A stretch of 61,790 nucleotides of DNA from Pseudomonas sp. BN417 (lineage in GTDB: Bacteria; Pseudomonadota; Gammaproteobacteria; Pseudomonadales; Pseudomonadaceae): NCBI RefSeq assembly GCF_029871205.1, contig NZ_SSOJ01000107.1, positions 1-61,790 on the forward strand. Direction: 5' to 3'. This document shows, piece after piece, positions 9,867 through 17,879 of this stretch (positions are counted from its first letter, which is position 1; the number at the start of each line of letters is the position of its first letter). The position numbers and the translations under genes are program-made. The notes beneath the pieces are model-generated. The model made no database searches. It worked only from the letters and a program-made list of their open reading frames with translations, and was not told where the DNA came from.

Positions 9867-10925
9867 TCAGGCGGATGCGGCGTCGTAGAACAGCTGCGAG
9901 TCGCGCTGCTCCACCAGGGCCTGCTCGATGGCGGCCTGGTGCACTTCGTCGGCGTGCTCTTCGCGCTCTTCCGGCTTGATGCCGAGGCGGGCGAACAGCT
10001 GCATGTCCTTCTCGGCCTGCGGGTTGGTGGTGGTCAGCAGCTTCTCGCCGTAGAAGATCGAGTTGGCGCCGGCCATGAAGGCCAGGGCCTGCATCTGCTC
10101 GTTCATCTGCTCGCGGCCGGCGGACAGGCGCACGTGGGACTTCGGCATCATGATGCGCGCCACCGCCAGGGTGCGGATGAAGTCGAACGGATCGACGTCC
10201 TTCTCTTCCGCCAGCGGGGTGCCCTTCACTTTCACCAGCATGTTGATCGGCACCGACTCCGGGTGCTCCGGCAGGTTGGCCAGCTGGATCAGCAGGCCGG
10301 CGCGGTCGTCCACCGACTCGCCCATGCCGAGGATGCCGCCGGAGCAGATCTTCATCCCCGCCTCGCGCACGTAGGCCAGGGTCTGCAGACGCTCGCTGTA
10401 GGTGCGGGTGGTGATGATGTTGCCGTAGAACTCCGGCGAGGTATCCAGGTTGTGGTTGTAGTAGTCCAGGCCCGCCTCGGCCAGCGACTGGGTCTGCTCC
10501 TGGGTCAGCTTGCCCAGGGTCATGCAGGTCTCAAGGCCGAGTTTCTTCACGCCTTTGACCATTTCCAGGACATAGGGCATGTCCTTGGCCGACGGATGCT
10601 TCCAGGCGGCGCCCATGCAGAAGCGGGTCGAACCAATGGCCTTGGCCTCGGCGGCGGCCTGCAGGACCTTCTGCACTTCCATCAGCTTTTCCTTGTCCAG
10701 GCCGGTGTTGTAGTGGCCGGACTGCGGGCAGTACTTGCAGTCTTCCGGGCAGGCGCCGGTCTTGATCGACAGCAGGGTGGAAACCTGTACCCGGTTCGGG
10801 TCGAAGTGCGCGCGATGAACGGTCTGGGCCTGGAACAGCAAGTCGTTGAACGGCTGCTCGAACAGTGCCTTCACCTCGGCGAGGGACCAGTCGTGACGGG
10901 TAGCGATGGATGCGGTTGCACTCAT
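9867..10925 (-). CDS. bioB: Biotin synthase BioB
   Basis: Radical-SAM enzyme inserting sulfur into dethiobiotin. 352 residues. The [4Fe-4S]/SAM motif CPEDCKYC places Cys59, Cys63 and Cys66. Downstream signatures include YNHNLDTS and GGILGMGES. First gene of bioBFHCD. The ATG at 10925 has GGAAACC-type weak Shine-Dalgarno. The promoter and candidate BirA operator lie 80-130 nt upstream. Confidence 0.98.
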
Positions 10926-11003
10926 GGAGGTTTCCTTCGACGCTTGTGTGGCGCCTCTTGTCAGGGATACCCGGACGTGGAGTCCGGGAATTCAGGCTTA
11001 GGC

Positions 11004-11055
11004 ATCATAAGTGGAGCTGTGACGCTGTCAACCATGTTCGCGACACAGGTCGACA
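11004..11055 (-). promoter_or_regulatory. bioB promoter with overlapping BirA-type operator
   Basis: On the minus strand, TTGACA (11031-11026) and TATGAT (11009-11004) are spaced by 16 bp, a near-consensus sigma70 promoter. The -35 lies inside an imperfect inverted repeat TGTCAACC-N14-GGTCGACA (11026-11055). Spacing and half-site sequence match the BirA consensus TTGTAAACC-N14/15-GGTTTACAA. BirA with biotinyl-AMP would block RNA polymerase here. Confidence 0.75.
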
Positions 11056-11091
11056 TCTGATCATTTATTGATCAGTCAACGCATGGCCCGT

Positions 11092-12426
11092 CTATTGATC
11101 GGCAAGTCCTTTGGCCAGGACGGACTCTCCCGCCCGGCGCAACCGTAGCGCGGCGCCATACACGCTCGCCGAAACCAGGAAGGTCAACGGCGCCGAGAAC
11201 GACTGCAGTACGCCACCGGCCTGCATCAGCGCGAAGCCGAGCAGCACGCCGCAGAACCAGGCGACCAGTCCGCCGGCATTCAGGTTGGGCGAGTCGGTCA
11301 CCTGGGCCGCGCCCTTGCCGAGGATGTGCGCCAGCGCCACGCCGACCCAGGCCACCACGAACACGCCCTGCCAGGCCAGGGCCTTGAGCAGCCAGGCGAA
11401 GACATCCGCCAGCATCAGCCCATAGACCACCGCTCCCACCACCAGCGCCCAGACCAGGCGCGAATGACGCAGGCGCAGCAGGTCGCCGAAGAAGGCCTGC
11501 ATGTTCACCGTCGCCAGGTAGTAATTCGCGGTATTGATCCGCGTCTGGGTGACCCATACGAACAGCAGGCCCCAGATGCCCATGAGCTGGAGGATGGCCA
11601 GCACCACCGTCACTTCGCTCAACTCGCCCTGGCGCGGAATGCTCGCGGCGAGGTAGATGCCGGCCATGCCGTTGAGCAGGAAGGTCACCAGGTAGAAAGG
11701 CATGCCGAAATTCCAGCGGCCGTGGTAGCGGGCATCTTCCGGCTTGCCGAAACGGGCGTAGTCGAAGGTGAACATCATCAGCACCCACACACCCATGTAG
11801 GCGGTGAAGCAATCCCACCAGCCGCTGGCCGAAGGCGCGGCCGGGCCGAAGTCCAGCCACTGCGGCTGGTAGCCGTATTCGCCTATGGACAGCGCCACGG
11901 CAGCGAGCAGGCCGAACAGGTAGAAGGGCAGCAGCACGCCGTTGAACTTGTCCAGCCAGTTCTGCACGCTGCCGAAGATCAGCGGCACGCTGTACAGCAC
12001 CACCAGCAGGGCCGCCACGGGGTAGGAAATCGAGGGGTAGAGATGGTTGAACGCCACGGCGATCACCGAGCCCTCGAAGACCGCGTAGTAGATCGCCGTG
12101 GAGAAGAAGATCAGGGTCGCCAGGGAGGCGCCGAGGCGGCCGAACAGCACGCGAGAAAACAGCGCTACGGAAAGGCCGCTGCGCACGGCGAAGCGGCTGA
12201 TCACCGCATTGATCACGCCGTAGCAGACCACCGAGAGCAGCATGCCGATGATCGCGTTGCGCGCGCCATAGGCCAGCGCCAGCGAGGCGCCCACCACTAT
12301 GTAGAACATGGCGCTGCACACGGCCCACCAGGCCATGGTCAGCGAGAGCTTGCCCATGCGGGCGTCGAGCGGGACGGGTTGGGTGGAAAGGTCGATGTCT
12401 TGTTCTTGTGTCGACAGGCTTGCCAT
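11092..12426 (-). CDS. NCS1-type cytosine/purine/allantoin permease family transporter
   Basis: Inner-membrane secondary transporter with about 12 hydrophobic segments over 444 residues. The start is the ATG at 12426 (MASLSTQEQD) with GGAGAAACC upstream; an upstream frame to 12504 is Cys/Arg-rich and unlike a transporter start. TM1 begins near SLTMAWWAVCSAMFYIVVGA, as in NCS1 carriers of nucleobases, hydantoins and allantoin. It follows pxpC by 105 nt on the same strand, so it probably imports the substrate of the pxp/biotin carboxylase enzymes (5-oxoproline or another small lactam or ureide; inference). The alternative frame at 11072-12442 is a shadow. Confidence 0.85.
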   Translation of the reverse strand: MASLSTQEQDIDLSTQPVPLDARMGKLSLTMAWWAVCSAMFYIVVGASLALAYGARNAIIGMLLSVVCYGVINAVISRFAVRSGLSVALFSRVLFGRLGASLATLIFFSTAIYYAVFEGSVIAVAFNHLYPSISYPVAALLVVLYSVPLIFGSVQNWLDKFNGVLLPFYLFGLLAAVALSIGEYGYQPQWLDFGPAAPSASGWWDCFTAYMGVWVLMMFTFDYARFGKPEDARYHGRWNFGMPFYLVTFLLNGMAGIYLAASIPRQGELSEVTVVLAILQLMGIWGLLFVWVTQTRINTANYYLATVNMQAFFGDLLRLRHSRLVWALVVGAVVYGLMLADVFAWLLKALAWQGVFVVAWVGVALAHILGKGAAQVTDSPNLNAGGLVAWFCGVLLGFALMQAGGVLQSFSAPLTFLVSASVYGAALRLRRAGESVLAKGLADQ

Positions 12427-12531
12427 CTTGGTTTCTCCGCAAGATGAAATCCGGGATCTGCGGCAGCAGGGGACCGCGGCGACCCCCTGCGCACAGGGAG
12501 CCACCGGTCGTGCCGACGCGTCTGTTGTTAT

Positions 12532-13509
12532 TCAGGCAAGAAAGAAGCGGTTGAGGCGTTCGAGTTGCTGGTTGTACTGGCGGCGGGCGGCCAGGCCCTC
12601 CTCCAGGGTGATGGCGACGAAACGCGCGCGCTGGTTCGGCTGCATCTGCGCGATCAGGTTGAGGTCAGGGCTGATCACCGTGCCGATCATCGCGTAGCCG
12701 CCGCCGGACACCGCGTCCCGGTGCAGGACGATGGGTTCCAGACCGCCGGGCACCTGGATCGAGCCGATGGGGTAGCAGGCGTCGACGATGTTCGACGGAT
12801 CGGAGCCGGCGCCGAAGGGCTGTTCGCGCGGCTCGAACTCCAGCGGCGTGCCGCCCTTGAAGCGGTAGCCGGTGCGATCGGCTTCCGAGCCCACGGTCCA
12901 GGTATCGGCGAAGAACTGCTCCGCCGCGCGAGCGGTGAGGCGATGGTGGTAGAGGCCCGGCACCACGCGCAGGGTCACCTCCCCGCCCAGTTCGATATGC
13001 AGCGAGCGCGGCAGGGCCAGGCCTTCGCGATCCTGCGCGGCGGGTTGTCCCAGTGGCAGCTCGTCGCCGGCGGCCAGGCGCCGGCCGTGGAAGCCGCCGA
13101 TGGCGCCCAGGCCATAGGTGGAGCGACTACCGAGCACTTCCGGCACGTCGATGCCGCCGTCGATGGCGACGTAACCGCGGGCCCCGGCCTTGATGTAGTC
13201 GAAGCCCAGCACCTGGCCGGCACGGACGCGGAAGACGGCGTCTTGCGGCATCTCGGCGCCATCCAGGCGCGGCGTCATGCGCGCGCCGCAGACCGCCACC
13301 AGGGCGTCGCGCTGGAACTCCAACTGCGGGCCGAGGAGCGTGCATTCGAGCAGCGCGGCGGTCGCCGGGTTGCCCACCAGCAGGTTGGCCGCACGCAGGG
13401 CGTACTGGTCGAGCGCGCCCGAGGGCGGGATGCCCTGGTGGTAATGGCCTTCGCGGCCGGCGTCCTGCACCGAGGTGGCGAGGCCGGGTTTGAGCACCTT
13501 AATCGACAT
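12532..13509 (-). CDS. pxpC: Biotin-dependent carboxyltransferase family protein, PxpC/KipA-like
   Basis: 325 residues from the ATG at 13509 (MSIKVLKPGLAT). It has the family opening SVQDAGREGHYHQGIPPSGA and the cyclophilin-like beta fold shared by PxpC, KipA and the carboxyltransferase domain of urea carboxylase. PxpABC is a known ATP-dependent 5-oxoprolinase, in which PxpB and PxpC form a complex. Its start overlaps the pxpB stop by 11 nt. With the BC and BCCP genes upstream it may act as half of a true carboxyltransferase rather than only as an oxoprolinase subunit. Confidence 0.88.
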   Translation of the reverse strand: MSIKVLKPGLATSVQDAGREGHYHQGIPPSGALDQYALRAANLLVGNPATAALLECTLLGPQLEFQRDALVAVCGARMTPRLDGAEMPQDAVFRVRAGQVLGFDYIKAGARGYVAIDGGIDVPEVLGSRSTYGLGAIGGFHGRRLAAGDELPLGQPAAQDREGLALPRSLHIELGGEVTLRVVPGLYHHRLTARAAEQFFADTWTVGSEADRTGYRFKGGTPLEFEPREQPFGAGSDPSNIVDACYPIGSIQVPGGLEPIVLHRDAVSGGGYAMIGTVISPDLNLIAQMQPNQRARFVAITLEEGLAARRQYNQQLERLNRFFLA

Positions 13510-14380
13510 GGAGCACCTCCTGCAGACGCTGCTTGCAGCCTTGCGGATCCTCGATGAAGGCATCCAGGTCGAAGCTGACCGGGCGGATGCGCAACTGGAA
13601 GGTCCCGGCCTCGACCTCGGCCACCGCCTGGTCGTAGGCGACGCGGTCGATCGGCTTGAACTGGACGATGTCGCCGGAGCGGAAGAACACCATGGAGTCC
13701 TTCAGGTAGCCCAGGCTCTGTTGCGGGTCGTAGATGGGCGCCGGGGTGACGCCGAACATCTGGTAGCCGCCGGCGCCGCGCACCGAGTAGATGCAGCCGA
13801 AGCAGCCGCCGTGGCCGAGGGTCAGCTTCGGCGTGTCGGTGCGCGGGCGCAGGTACTTGGGCACCTGCAACTGCTGCTCGCGCTCGACCATCTGGTACAT
13901 GAAGGGCAGCCCGGCGACGAAGCCGACCATGGAGACGAACCAGGGCGAGCCACTGTGGGCCTCGATGAACGCCTGCACATCGGCGAAGCCGTTGACCTTG
14001 GCCGCGTACTCCAGGTCGGTGGAGGACGGGTCCTGGTGGCGGTCGCGGAAGCGCATCAGCGTTTCATGGGTCCAGGGATCGTTGTAGAGCACCGGGATCT
14101 CGATGATCCGCGTCTGGATGCTGCGCTCGGCCGTGGCCTGGGCTTCCAGTTCGCGGACCTTTTCCAGCAGCGCCTCAGGGGCGATCTGGTCGGGGTTGAA
14201 GCGGATCTGGAAGGAGGCGTTGGCCAGGCAGATGTCGAGCACGCCGGGCAGCGCCTGCTGCTCGACGGCGCGGGTGATCGCCATGCCGCGGAAGAAGGCT
14301 TCCAGCGACATGGATTCGGAGACTTCGGCGAACAGGTGCTCGTCGCCGCCAAAGCTGTAGCGCACAGGTGCTGCGTTCAT
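13499..14380 (-). CDS. pxpB: PxpB/KipI-like carboxyltransferase subunit
   Basis: 293 residues from the ATG at 14380 (MNAAPVRYSFGGDEH), directly after the biotin carboxylase stop (TGA-G-ATG). The C-terminal half carries the KipI/urea-carboxylase fold signature around GGCFGCIYSVRGAGGYQMFG. It is about 60 residues longer than typical free PxpB (about 220-230), with an N-terminal extension ending near residue 70-100. It is the partner of PxpC by adjacency and overlap. The family is clear; the substrate (5-oxoproline or another lactam) is inferred. Confidence 0.86.
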   Translation of the reverse strand: MNAAPVRYSFGGDEHLFAEVSESMSLEAFFRGMAITRAVEQQALPGVLDICLANASFQIRFNPDQIAPEALLEKVRELEAQATAERSIQTRIIEIPVLYNDPWTHETLMRFRDRHQDPSSTDLEYAAKVNGFADVQAFIEAHSGSPWFVSMVGFVAGLPFMYQMVEREQQLQVPKYLRPRTDTPKLTLGHGGCFGCIYSVRGAGGYQMFGVTPAPIYDPQQSLGYLKDSMVFFRSGDIVQFKPIDRVAYDQAVAEVEAGTFQLRIRPVSFDLDAFIEDPQGCKQRLQEVLHVD

Positions 14381-14381
14381 C

Positions 14382-15770
14382 TCAAGCCTCCGGGGCGGCG
14401 GGCGCCAGCAGAGCGGCCCGTTCGGCGAGCCAGGGTTCCAGGGTGCCGGTATCGAACTGGCCATCGCGCACGGCGGGGTCGGCGAGCAGCAGGCGGTGCA
14501 GCGGGAGAGTGGTCGCCATGCCCGTCAGGCGGGTGGCGTCCAGCGCCGCTTCGGCACGGGCGAAGGCCTCGGCGCGGTCGCCGCCATGCACCACCAGCTT
14601 GGCCAGCAGCGAGTCGTAGTAGGCCGGCACGCGATAGCCCTCGAACAGGTGGCTTTCCACGCGGATGCCCTCGCCCTGCGGCCAGACCAGCGCTTCCACC
14701 AGGCCGGGGCTGGGGAAGAAATTGCGCGCCGGGTCTTCGGCGTTGATGCGCATCTCCAGCGCCGCGCCCTGGATGCGGATGTCCTCCTGGCGCAACGACA
14801 GCGGCTCGCCACCGGCGATGCGCAGCATCCACTGCACCAGGTCGATGCCGGTGATCATCTCGCTGATCGGGTGCTCGACCTGGATGCGGGTGTTCATCTC
14901 GATGAAGAAGAACTCGCCGCTGTGGGAATCGAACAGGTATTCCAGGGTGCCGGCCCCGCAGTAACCGATGTCGCGGGCCAGGCGCACGGCGCTTTCGCAC
15001 AGGGCCTGGCGCTGCTCGGCGCTGAGGGCGGGCGATGGCGCCTCTTCGAAGACCTTCTGCCGGCGACGCTGCAGCGAGCACTCGCGCTCGAACAGGTGCA
15101 CCGCGTGCTGGCCATCACCGAGGATCTGCACCTCGATGTGCCGCGCCTGGCGGATGAAGCGCTCCAGGTACACCGCGCCCGAGCCGAAGGCAGCCTGGGC
15201 TTCGCGCTGGGCCAGCGGAAACTCGCGGGACAGCTCGGCGGCATCATGGGCGATGCGGATACCGCGCCCGCCACCGCCGGCCGAAGCCTTGATCAGCAGC
15301 GGGTAGCCCACCGTCTCTGCGCAGGCCAGGGCGGCGGCGAGGTCGTCCAGTTCGCCCGGGGAGCCCGGCACCACCGGCACGCCGGCGGCCTGGGCGGTAC
15401 GCCGTGCTTCGGCCTTGTCGCCCATGCGGCGGATGGTGTCGGCATCCGGGCCGACGAAGATCAGCCCCGCCTCGACCACTGCCTGGGCGAAGGCCGCGTT
15501 CTCGGAGAGGAAGCCATAGCCCGGGTGGATGGCGTTGGCGCCGCTGTCCCGCGCCGCCTGCAACAGGGCCTCGGCGTTCAGGTAGCTCTTGTCGGCGCGG
15601 GCCGGACCGATGATCCGCACCTCGTCGGCCAGGCGCGCCGGCAGCGATTCGGCATCCGCCTTGCTGCACGCCGCCACGGTGGGAATGCCCAGGGCCTGGG
15701 CCGCGCGGATGATGCGCACGGCGATCTCGCCGCGGTTGGCCACCAGCAGTTTGTGGATGGAGTTGCTCAT
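14382..15770 (-). CDS. Biotin carboxylase (AccC family) of the pxp cluster
   Basis: ATP-grasp enzyme carboxylating biotin on a carrier protein with bicarbonate. 462 residues from the ATG at 15770 (MSNSIHKLLVANRGEIAVRI). It shows NAIHPGYGFLSEN, the ATP glycine loop KASAGGGGRG (161-170), the catalytic region FFFIEMNTRIQVEHPI and YDSLLAKLVVHG. Its partners are the adjacent BCCP (10-nt gap) and PxpB/PxpC, so it is probably not the housekeeping acetyl-CoA carboxylase subunit, whose gene normally pairs with accB elsewhere. Confidence 0.92.
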   Translation of the reverse strand: MSNSIHKLLVANRGEIAVRIIRAAQALGIPTVAACSKADAESLPARLADEVRIIGPARADKSYLNAEALLQAARDSGANAIHPGYGFLSENAAFAQAVVEAGLIFVGPDADTIRRMGDKAEARRTAQAAGVPVVPGSPGELDDLAAALACAETVGYPLLIKASAGGGGRGIRIAHDAAELSREFPLAQREAQAAFGSGAVYLERFIRQARHIEVQILGDGQHAVHLFERECSLQRRRQKVFEEAPSPALSAEQRQALCESAVRLARDIGYCGAGTLEYLFDSHSGEFFFIEMNTRIQVEHPISEMITGIDLVQWMLRIAGGEPLSLRQEDIRIQGAALEMRINAEDPARNFFPSPGLVEALVWPQGEGIRVESHLFEGYRVPAYYDSLLAKLVVHGGDRAEAFARAEAALDATRLTGMATTLPLHRLLLADPAVRDGQFDTGTLEPWLAERAALLAPAAPEA

Positions 15771-15780
15771 CGCCCTGCCC

Positions 15781-16029
15781 TCACGCGTCGGTTTCGATGA
15801 CGGCCAGCAATTGCCCCGGCTCGACCGGGTCGCCGTCCTCGACGTGGAACGCCAGCACGCGGCCACCCTGGTCGGCGGTCAGTTCGGAGAACTGCTTCAT
15901 TACCTCCACCAGGCCGATCACGGCATTGGCGGCCACGGTGTCACCCTCGTTGGCATAGTTGTCGGCCTCGGGGCTCGGCTTGCGATAGAAGGTGCCGGGG
16001 AGCGGTGAAAACACCTGAAATTCAGCCAT
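15781..16029 (-). CDS. Biotin carboxyl carrier protein, minimal domain
   Basis: Only 82 residues: a single biotinyl/lipoyl domain without the Pro/Ala linker of AccB. The biotinylation site reads EVMKQF with Lys45, in place of the usual EAMKM, so the residues either side of the Met-Lys core differ. It corresponds to the position I recall as PA0493, 'probable biotin-requiring enzyme'. It shuttles carboxybiotin between the carboxylase encoded downstream and PxpBC. Confidence 0.9.
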   Translation of the reverse strand: MAEFQVFSPLPGTFYRKPSPEADNYANEGDTVAANAVIGLVEVMKQFSELTADQGGRVLAFHVEDGDPVEPGQLLAVIETDA

Positions 16030-16077
16030 GTCTTTTCCTCTTGTAGTACTTGTCTTGGCAGGCGTGAGAAAGGGAGA

Positions 16078-16836
16078 TCAGCGCGGCGCTCTGACGGCAA
16101 TGCCCGCCGCGTCGAGGCGGGCGCGGGTGCGCTGGACCAGGGCCAGGGCCCCGGGGGTGTCGCTGTGGATGCACACCGACTCGAAGGCGATCGGGATGTC
16201 CTGGCCATCCACCGTGCGCACCACGCCCTCCTGGCAGGCCCGCAGGACCTTGTCGGCCACCTGTTCCGGGTCCAGCGCGGTGACCCGGCGGATGAACACA
16301 ATGGAGCCGGAGGCGTCGTAGTCGCGGTCGGCGTAGAACTCGCGCACCACCGGCTGGCCCAGCTCCCGGGCGATGCGGCAGGTGGCCGAGCCGTCCATGC
16401 AGAACAGCAGCAGCTCGGGGTCAAGGCGGCGCAGGGTTTCGATGAACAGGCGCGCCGCACCTTCGTCACGGGCCAGGTGCATGTAGAGCGCGCCGTGGGG
16501 CTTGATGTGCTGCAAGGTCAGGCCCTGCAGGCGGGCGAACTCGCGCAGCGCACCGAGCTGGTAGAGCATGTCGTTGACCAGCTCCTGGGCCGGCGCATTG
16601 ATGTGCCGGCGGCCAAAGCCCACCAGGTCGCGGAAGCCCGGATGGGCGCCGATGGCCACGCCGTGGCGCTGGGCCAGTTCTACGGTGCGCAGCATGGTGT
16701 TGGGATCGCCGGCATGGAAGCCGGTGGCGATGTTGGCGGTACTGATCAGCGGCATGATCGCTTCGTCGACGCCATCGCCAATGGTCCATGGGCCAAATCC
16801 TTCGCCCATGTCGGAATTGAGGTCGACCTCGGTCAT
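16078..16836 (-). CDS. pxpA: 5-oxoprolinase subunit A / LamB-YcsF family
   Basis: 252 residues, opening [17 protein letters not shown] with [16 protein letters not shown] and KPHGALYMH, all hallmarks of the LamB/YcsF polysaccharide-deacetylase-like fold. PxpA hydrolyses the activated lactam in 5-oxoproline cleavage, and LamB was named for lactam use in Aspergillus. First gene of the operon, divergent from the LysR gene (125-nt gap), followed by BCCP, BC, pxpB, pxpC and the NCS1 permease. Confidence 0.92.
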
Positions 16837-16961
16837 CGCGTGTTGCCTCTTGTTATCGGATGTCTATGGGCCGACGTTAAAAGGCACCCCAGGTATTGGG
16901 AAGATTTATTATTCGATAGACTGAGTTCTGAAAAATCGATACCCCCAGGCAGGTCTCTACC

Positions 16962-17879
16962 ATGGCATTCACCCTGCGCCAGGTCCGTTATTTCGTCGCC
17001 ACCGCCGAGGTCGGACAGATCTCCCAGGCGGCCATCCACCTGAGCATTTCCCAGTCGGCGGTCACCAGCGCCATCCAGGAACTGGAGGGCCTGCTCGGCG
17101 TCAGCCTGTTCATCCGCTCGCCCCAGGGCATGACCCTGACCGACAGTGGCCGGCACTTCCTCAACCACGCCTACTCCATCCTGCGCAGTGTCGAGGACGC
17201 ACTGAAGAGCCCGCTGCCGGACACCAGCATCGAGGGCAGCCTGAGCGTGGCGGCCAGCTACACGGTGATGGGCTACTTCCTGCCCTACCACCTGCAGCGT
17301 CTGGCGCAGTGGTATCCGGGCATCCAGCTGAACCTGTACGAACAGGAGCGCGACAGCATCGAACGCAGCCTGCTGGACGGCACGCTGGACATGGCCGTGG
17401 TGCTGACCGCCAACCTGCAGCATCCGGACATCGCCGCCGAGACCCTGTTCAGTTCGGAACGGCGGCTCTGGCTGCCCAACCGCCATCCACTCAGCGAACG
17501 ACCCTCGGTGGGCCTGGAGGATGTCGCCCGCGAACCCTTCATCCTGCTGACCGTGGACGAGGCCGACCAGACCGCCCTCCGGTACTGGGAAGCCAGCCGC
17601 CTGCAACCCAAGGTGATCCTGCGCACCAGTTCGGTGGAGGCCGTGCGCAGCATGGTGGCCAACGGCACGGGCGTGGCCATCCTCTCCGACCTGGTGTACC
17701 GGCCCTGGTCGCTGGAGGGCCGGCGCATCGAAACCCTGTCGCTGACCGACCCCGTCCCGCCGATGAGCGTGGGGCTGGCCTGGCGCCGCGACCTGGAATT
17801 CAGCGAACCGATGAAAGCCTTCCGCGAATATTTCCGGCACTCTTTCCTGGCCCCGCAACTGAGCAGTTCGCGGCGCTGA
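16962..17879 (+). CDS. LysR-family regulator, probable controller of the pxp operon
   Basis: 305 residues. The N-terminal winged HTH reads LRQVRYFVATAEVGQISQAA, with SQSAVTSAIQELE as recognition region; the C-terminal part is a periplasmic-binding-like effector domain. Divergent transcription from pxpA is the classic LysR layout and suggests activation of that operon by its substrate. In the 125-nt divergent region I could not pick a single convincing T-N11-A box. Confidence 0.9.
   Translation: MAFTLRQVRYFVATAEVGQISQAAIHLSISQSAVTSAIQELEGLLGVSLFIRSPQGMTLTDSGRHFLNHAYSILRSVEDALKSPLPDTSIEGSLSVAASYTVMGYFLPYHLQRLAQWYPGIQLNLYEQERDSIERSLLDGTLDMAVVLTANLQHPDIAAETLFSSERRLWLPNRHPLSERPSVGLEDVAREPFILLTVDEADQTALRYWEASRLQPKVILRTSSVEAVRSMVANGTGVAILSDLVYRPWSLEGRRIETLSLTDPVPPMSVGLAWRRDLEFSEPMKAFREYFRHSFLAPQLSSSRR

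Follow-up and report, generated by a model that had tools for sequence, protein, structure and literature searches.

We analysed a stretch of 61,790 nucleotides of Pseudomonas sp. BN417 (assembly GCF_029871205.1, contig NZ_SSOJ01000107.1, positions 1-61,790, forward strand), hereafter the window, in which an operon on the minus strand combines a PxpA-like hydrolase with the parts of a biotin-dependent carboxylase. The operon runs from position 16836 down to 11092, and all of its frames are intact. The first gene (16078-16836) encodes the PxpA-like (LamB/YcsF) hydrolase, the predicted ring-opening subunit, which matches PF03746 with 307 bits and NF003814 with 306 bits (cut-off 226). It is followed by the gene for a biotin carboxyl carrier protein (BCCP) of 82 amino acids (15781-16029; PF00364 52 bits; NF005457 125 bits, cut-off 87), the mini-BCCP, whose predicted biotinylated residue is Lys45 in the motif EVMKQF (codon 15895-15897), and by the gene for a biotin carboxylase (BC) of the acetyl-CoA carboxylase (ACC) type (14382-15770; PF02785/PF02786/PF00289; NF009471 845 bits, cut-off 686). 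The next two genes encode carboxyltransferase (CT) subunits of the urea-carboxylase type. CT(C,D), annotated PxpB, has 293 amino acids (13499-14380; PF02682 135 bits) and carries Lys175 (codon 13856-13858), and CT(A,B), annotated PxpC, has 325 amino acids (12532-13509; PF02626 302 bits). The last gene (11092-12426) encodes an NCS1-type permease, likely the substrate importer, with a weak match to NCS1/Transp_cyt_pur (Pfam 19.9 bits, cut-off 23.5). The first four genes are separated by 48, 10 and 1 bp, the two CT genes overlap by 11 bp, and 105 bp lie ahead of the permease gene. A LysR-type regulator (16962-17879; PF03466/PF00126) is encoded divergently on the plus strand. Every gene named in a preliminary description of this DNA was found in its place on the minus strand, intact and contiguous, and the families agreed as well, weakly so for the permease. 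An Rfam scan of 10800-17100 gave no match.

To place the two CT subunits, we compared them with curated family models. CT(C,D) reached 69.6 bits against the PxpB model TIGR00370 (cut-off 145.6) and CT(A,B) reached 224.6 bits against the PxpC model NF045499 (cut-off 500), both under the cut-off, and the urea carboxylase model gave CT(C,D) a higher score than the PxpB model (101 bits against about 70 bits). The urea carboxylase model TIGR02712 describes a single chain and was matched piecewise with 237, 101, 527 and 24 bits, missing its cut-off of 1304; the BC, CT(A,B), CT(C,D) and BCCP domains of urea carboxylase were all found, each on a separate gene. CT(A,B) is 40% identical to a fused urea carboxylase encoded in the same genome and 33-35% identical to the genome's two PxpC proteins, and the identity of CT(C,D) to the same urea carboxylase is 26%.

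Lys1605 of the Kluyveromyces lactis urea amidolyase (KlUA) probably acts as general base in the transfer of the carboxyl group, and replacing this residue is described as severely inhibiting the enzyme (PMC5770610). When a ten-homologue profile of CT(C,D) was searched against solved structures, the best relative was the yeast urea carboxylase 3VA7 (E 1.9e-21), and Lys175 aligned with Lys1605. An even phylum sample yielded 49 CT(C,D) matches in 34 of 120 genomes, in which this site is Lys in each of the 15 fused urea carboxylases and each of the three window-type proteins, and Arg in the remaining 31 of 31, here called Arg-type. Lys175 and Tyr206 occur together in 117/117 window-type relatives examined, many of them near-copies, while the other PxpB proteins have Arg and Trp at these two sites in 31/31. 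Further sites common to urea carboxylase and rare in other PxpB and PxpC proteins number eight in CT(C,D) and nine in CT(A,B), the latter including an insert. An AlphaFold model of CT(C,D) built from 10 rows had a mean pLDDT of 57 and was not used.

Trees were built from 22-23 hand-picked loci of the operon type (of about 118), from 10 or 6 of the 15 fused urea carboxylases, and from the Arg-type loci, of which all 31 entered the CT tree and the 29 having a PxpA entered the PxpA tree. The CT(A,B) tree, made by a quick method and showing long branches, separated 22 representatives of the operon type together with 10 urea carboxylases from 31 PxpC with a support of 98, the divergent member L176 being on the urea carboxylase side. 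This tree is independent of Lys175, since that site is on the other subunit. Judged by these sequence comparisons, the CT pair belongs to the urea-carboxylase lineage and not to the classical 5-oxoprolinase subunits, and we rejected an identity as ordinary PxpABC on the curated cut-offs, the CT(A,B) tree and the active-site residue.

The BC, BCCP and PxpA proteins have other affinities. In the BC tree, 20 of 22 operon-type rows clustered together with a support of 100, close to the genome's own AccC and apart from the BC of urea carboxylase; two haloarchaeal BCs (L182, L183) fell on another branch. The BCCP scored 75.8 bits with the AccB model against 23.8 bits with the urea carboxylase model. 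Its Met44-Lys45 pair was kept in 69/69 relatives, biotinylation being a prediction, and EVMKQF is present in 36 of 47 BCCP frames from operon-type loci. The motif, which had been singled out in the preliminary description as unusual, is thus the family norm, and we dropped it as a distinguishing feature. In the PxpA tree, 23 operon-type representatives lie on one side of a branch and 29 others on the other side (support 89), and the PxpA of the operon is 42-44% identical to the genome's two other PxpA proteins. These tree and model results indicate that the parts came from three sources, namely ACC (BC and BCCP), urea carboxylase (the CT pair) and PxpA. The earlier view of the BC, BCCP and CT genes as the separated parts of urea carboxylase therefore stands for the CT halves, on the CT tree, the shared sites and the match to 3VA7, and fails for BC and BCCP, which are of the ACC type. 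Its other proposal, that PxpA takes over from allophanate hydrolase, agrees with what we found, as PxpA sits in the place of the downstream hydrolase.

Genome-wide searches gave three PxpA, four CT(A,B) and eight BC matches. The genome holds two ordinary pxpABC sets apart from the operon, a fused urea carboxylase of 1205 amino acids with an adjoining allophanate hydrolase (788 bits, cut-off 511), and its own accB-accC pair, all elsewhere.

We then examined how widely the gene set is distributed and how firmly its members are linked. Relatives are common, being encoded in at least 551 genome stretches, and the five-gene set extends beyond Pseudomonas to rhizobia, roseobacters, haloarchaea and a Rhodococcus. 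From the scan that gave these stretches, 80 named loci were kept, all close kin and 79 of them titled Pseudomonas; the remaining one (L103, titled Pantoea sp. Ap-967) groups among Pseudomonas putida-type loci and is probably a misnamed genome. LysR kin above 250 bits were found at all 80 named loci and at most loci of other families, showing that the regulator is conserved with the operon. In a sample of 398 genomes of the phylum, CT(C,D) was found at E 1e-30 or better in 17 genomes and in 14 of 213 genera; in 16 of the 17 genomes the identity is at least 60%, and in one (G249) it is 35%. A mini-BCCP of at least 95 bits occurred in 15 of the 398 genomes, each of them also holding CT(C,D); the 95-bit line was set by eye after the table had been seen, and at the curated cut-off of 87 bits the count is 55 of the 398, mostly through longer AccB-sized frames. 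The two CT(C,D) genomes lacking a mini-BCCP are Pseudomonadaceae without BC and BCCP. A later check of 99 Pseudomonadaceae genomes found the BCCP in nine, including two of ten within the window's own genus, and in each of the eight other than the window's, the contig with the BCCP also carries CT(C,D) (75-94% identity), no more than about 3 kb away. The five genes are complete in 13/13 intact loci of other families. In one further genome (G194), a single operon is broken inside BC between two contigs (L172 and L173), reflecting a rearrangement or an assembly fault.

Among plasmids, CT(C,D) was found at E 1e-60 or better in 89 records, with identities of 48-52% in haloarchaea and 44% in Rhodococcus jostii RHA1. 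We examined 20 of the 89 records, chosen for different genera and annotation, and in 19 of these 20 loci the five genes lie together within 9 kb. L176 has an altered gene order with a distant PxpA, and Natribaculum has a BCCP with no BC or PxpA nearby. On the haloarchaeal plasmids L182, L183, L192, L193 and L195, some parts are on the opposite strand or farther off. The gene order is rearranged in haloarchaea and Rhodococcus and the five genes are still linked, which indicates that the linkage is not the mere inheritance of one block.

We compared the operon with known systems. Urea carboxylase (EC 6.3.4.6) carboxylates an amide nitrogen, yielding a product that is subsequently cleaved by a hydrolase. 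The operon is like this enzyme (KlUC, 3VA7) in the CT fold and lineage, the predicted catalytic Lys, the CT(A,B) insert and the expected chemistry with ATP, biotin and bicarbonate, whereas it differs in its four separate polypeptides, its ACC-type BC and BCCP, and its PxpA partner instead of allophanate hydrolase. Guanidine carboxylase, a fused urea-carboxylase-like enzyme, likewise N-carboxylates an amide-like nitrogen, although it is a single chain and works with different hydrolases. With the PxpABC 5-oxoprolinase of Bacillus subtilis, E. coli and Corynebacterium glutamicum, the operon shares the PxpA family, CT-fold partners, and a transporter and regulator in the operon. PxpABC is not known to need biotin. 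Unlike the system described here, it is assumed to phosphorylate its substrate, and its PxpB carries Arg in place of Lys175 (31/31 sampled).

Another related system is that of Aspergillus nidulans, in which the conversion of 2-pyrrolidinone to gamma-aminobutyric acid (GABA) needs both LamA, a single fused fungal chain described as a putative urea carboxylase, and LamB, which is homologous to PxpA. To our knowledge, no enzyme mechanism has been reported for LamA/LamB. If these roles are right, the operon would be a split prokaryotic counterpart of LamA/LamB, which would provide a genetic precedent. The lamA and lamB genes are given as lactam-catabolism genes of the AmdR regulon (PMC8016842). 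The caprolactamase CapAB of Pseudomonas jessenii also opens a lactam with ATP and bicarbonate; a carboxylated lactim was considered for it among three mechanisms, and CapAB is of the HyuA/HyuB type and is stated not to be similar to PxpABC (PMC8453981). This lends published backing to the general idea, though not to the present operon. Separate genes that each resemble one half of the urea carboxylase CT have been noted, no function being given where they are mentioned (PMC3199775). No paper on a biotin-dependent lactamase was found in the literature searched, which excluded most subscription journals. We take the operon to correspond to PA0492-PA0496 of Pseudomonas aeruginosa. PA0493 and PA0494 are stated to be of unknown function (PMC6249292), and PA0492-PA0496 are reported to be lowered by excess ParB (PMC5521831).

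Based on the CT lineage, the presence of PxpA in the place of the hydrolase and the conservation of the set far beyond Pseudomonas, we suggest that carboxylation followed by ring opening is the best reading: a split mosaic biotin-dependent carboxylase and a PxpA hydrolase would together open a small lactam or cyclic ureide after its N-carboxylation, to which we assign a probability of roughly 0.6. The replacement of the urea-carboxylase hydrolase by a lactamase-family protein is what predicts a ring amide that is N-carboxylated, opened and then freed of CO2. Both the substrate and the following chemical steps are what we infer from the gene set, lineage, conserved sites and linkage observed above. 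First, the NCS1-type permease probably imports the substrate. Second, BirA is predicted to biotinylate Lys45 of the BCCP, which BC would load with CO2 from ATP and bicarbonate, as the family and the conserved motif suggest. Third, the CT pair, with Lys175 as the predicted general base in analogy to urea carboxylase, would move the CO2 to the lactam nitrogen. Fourth, the activated ring amide would be hydrolysed by PxpA. Finally, the resulting N-carboxy amino acid (a carbamate) would spontaneously shed CO2 to give the free amino acid, which would make CO2 a disposable activating group. As for the substrate, our first, tentative guess is that at least some members convert 2-pyrrolidone to GABA.

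The neighbouring genes were examined with 31 ordinary pxp loci and 15 urea carboxylase loci as controls (most loci covering 12-19 kb, a few shorter). In the window, the operon is followed on its own strand by a biotin-synthesis cluster (bioB, bioF, bioH), a neighbour outside the machine itself. It starts with bioB (9867-10925, minus strand; TIGR00433 418 bits), and a promoter-like sigma-70 site at 11031-11004 ahead of this gene (11 of 12 match) suggests that the cluster may have its own promoter despite following the operon. Biotin genes were found near the operon in four settings and at none of the 46 control loci. These settings are bioBF at 6 of 83 Pseudomonas-type loci (that of the window and five related ones), BioB immediately after the operon on a conjugative plasmid of Acidiphilium (L188, 11153-12133), and BioY twice (L060 and L172). 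Five of 35 non-Pseudomonas loci have HyuA and HyuB nearby, as opposed to 0/46 controls (p 0.013, post hoc and uncorrected), where the 35 count L172 and L173, the halves of one operon, separately. Among transporters, a TorT-type ABC importer lies near 13 of the 35, and NCS1 kin lie beside the operon at 22/83 Pseudomonas-type loci, 5/35 other loci and 0/31 ordinary pxp loci. Molybdenum hydroxylases can turn N-heterocycles into lactams, and kin of the xanthine-dehydrogenase type lie near three of the 35 loci (L060, L187, L170); these neighbours are possibly a supply step for the lactam. In Ruegeria TM1040, gabT and gabD are one small gene away from the operon's LysR gene, and in Aestuarium they lie behind an ABC importer near the operon, which suggests GABA as the product and 2-pyrrolidone as the substrate in these two organisms.

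Several observations weigh against the proposal that lactams are opened after biotin-dependent carboxylation. First, as regards the neighbouring genes, two of the five HyuA proteins share only 35% identity with the query, the tests on neighbourhoods were post hoc and uncorrected (p 0.013 and 0.034), and GabT kin occur near 3/35 and 1/83 operon-type loci against 2/31 ordinary pxp loci. Because of these control loci the substrate hint is weak, and we dropped the GABA genes as proof of the substrate, gabT with gabD being clear at two loci. Second, CT(A,B) passes the broad domain model TIGR00724 that is common to PxpC (265.7 bits, cut-off 230.2). Third, BC is linked to 9 of the 31 Arg-type PxpB loci, so that Lys or Arg by itself does not mark biotin use, and this residue alone was abandoned as a marker. 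Finally, and weighing most heavily against a simple interpretation, BC and BCCP are both missing from 46 of the 80 named loci, where PxpA, the two CT genes and LysR are present; on a 95-locus tree, the presence of BC and BCCP requires at least three changes, or five by parsimony; and among 13 genomes searched, no BC above 54% identity was found in the eight without a dedicated BC (two from the phylum sample and six named).

The Arg-type loci with a BC are of two kinds. Six of them (L033, L036, L040, L044, L045, L047) have a PxpA and BC frames of 570-833 amino acids, which lie next to PxpB and at five of these loci are fused to PxpC, and three (L029, L041, L048) have BC and BCCP as separate genes. 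These loci are spread over two or more groups of the CT tree, and it seems from the sequences that recruitment of BC and BCCP to PxpABC happened more than once.

The loci without BC and BCCP number 48 in total (46 of L078-L151, plus L162 and L163). All 48 have Lys175, and invariant sites are kept at 87/88 positions in CT(C,D) and 48/49 in PxpA. In CT(A,B), 98/103 are kept after dropping the gappy rows L117 and L143, and 41/103 with them. By this comparison, the remaining genes show no decay where BC and BCCP are absent. The dedicated BC and BCCP are accordingly dispensable at the 46 named loci. As to the co-occurrence of BC, BCCP and the CT/PxpA genes, which the preliminary description proposed to check, the BCCP comes with CT(C,D) in 15/15 and 8/8 genomes, and 46/80 named loci do without BC and BCCP. 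Its central idea of N-carboxylation before opening keeps its footing in the urea-carboxylase-type CT, the PxpA partner and the wide conservation of the set, and is incomplete in view of the frequent loss of BC and BCCP. Where these are lost, either the housekeeping AccB/AccC, the closest kin of the missing proteins, supplies carboxybiotin or biotin is not needed. Since the CT sites are so fully kept, we favour the former, and in these Pseudomonas strains AccB/AccC is likely to stand in.

The same loci bear on a variant ATP-dependent PxpABC lactamase, in which the CT-fold pair and PxpA would do the work by way of phosphorylating the lactam and BC and BCCP would be accessory or passenger proteins. 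PxpB and PxpC are assumed to phosphorylate 5-oxoproline (PMC13274462), and the absence of BC and BCCP from 46/80 named loci, with Lys175 and most invariant CT and PxpA sites retained at the 48 loci of this kind, speaks for such an enzyme. However, the CT pair belongs with urea carboxylase and not with PxpBC, BC and BCCP are kept with the CT pair across archaea, Actinomycetota and Pseudomonadota, and two ordinary pxpABC sets are already present in the genome, which together make this explanation unlikely. The grouping of the CT with urea carboxylase and the annotation of NCS1-type neighbours as allantoin permeases would also fit an additional urea-type carboxylase, divided into subunits and acting on an amide other than a lactam (urea, guanidine, formamide or a different ureide), with PxpA acting on the N-carboxylated product like allophanate hydrolase. 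We consider this slightly less probable still, given that the genome already has a fused urea carboxylase with its allophanate hydrolase, that PxpA is of a lactamase family in which the operon-type kin form their own group, and that HyuAB and GABA genes at some loci point to ring amides. A role of BC and BCCP in acetyl-CoA or acyl-CoA carboxylation, as annotated, with a chance placement beside lactamase genes, agrees with their ACC type and with the fatty-acid context in which PA0493/PA0494 are discussed (PMC6249292), but it is very improbable, and a duplicate acetyl-CoA carboxylase was rejected, because a domain scan of the operon proteins found no acyl-CoA-type CT, accB-accC lies elsewhere in the genome, the mini-BCCP accompanies this CT type in both genome samples, and the linkage survives the gene-order changes in haloarchaea and Rhodococcus.

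Returning to N-carboxylation followed by ring opening, the annotations as 5-oxoprolinase, allophanate hydrolase and acetyl-CoA carboxylase are probably all wrong for this lineage. In its broadest form, the proposal is that biotin-dependent lactamases are a new enzyme class ranging from haloarchaea to Pseudomonas, in which Pseudomonas species without a dedicated carboxylase borrow carboxybiotin from the AccB/AccC of fatty-acid synthesis, one carrier thereby serving two pathways; we put this at somewhat short of an even chance. The repeated loss of the carboxylase half would then be a natural experiment on whether an ACC carrier can serve a second enzyme. If the proposed carboxylation is true, there would be a second ATP-driven chemistry for lactam bonds beside phosphorylation, with relevance to nylon precursors, pyrrolidone solvents and damaged amino acids, and the Pseudomonas aeruginosa operon PA0492-PA0496, assuming the correspondence holds, would gain a concrete role.

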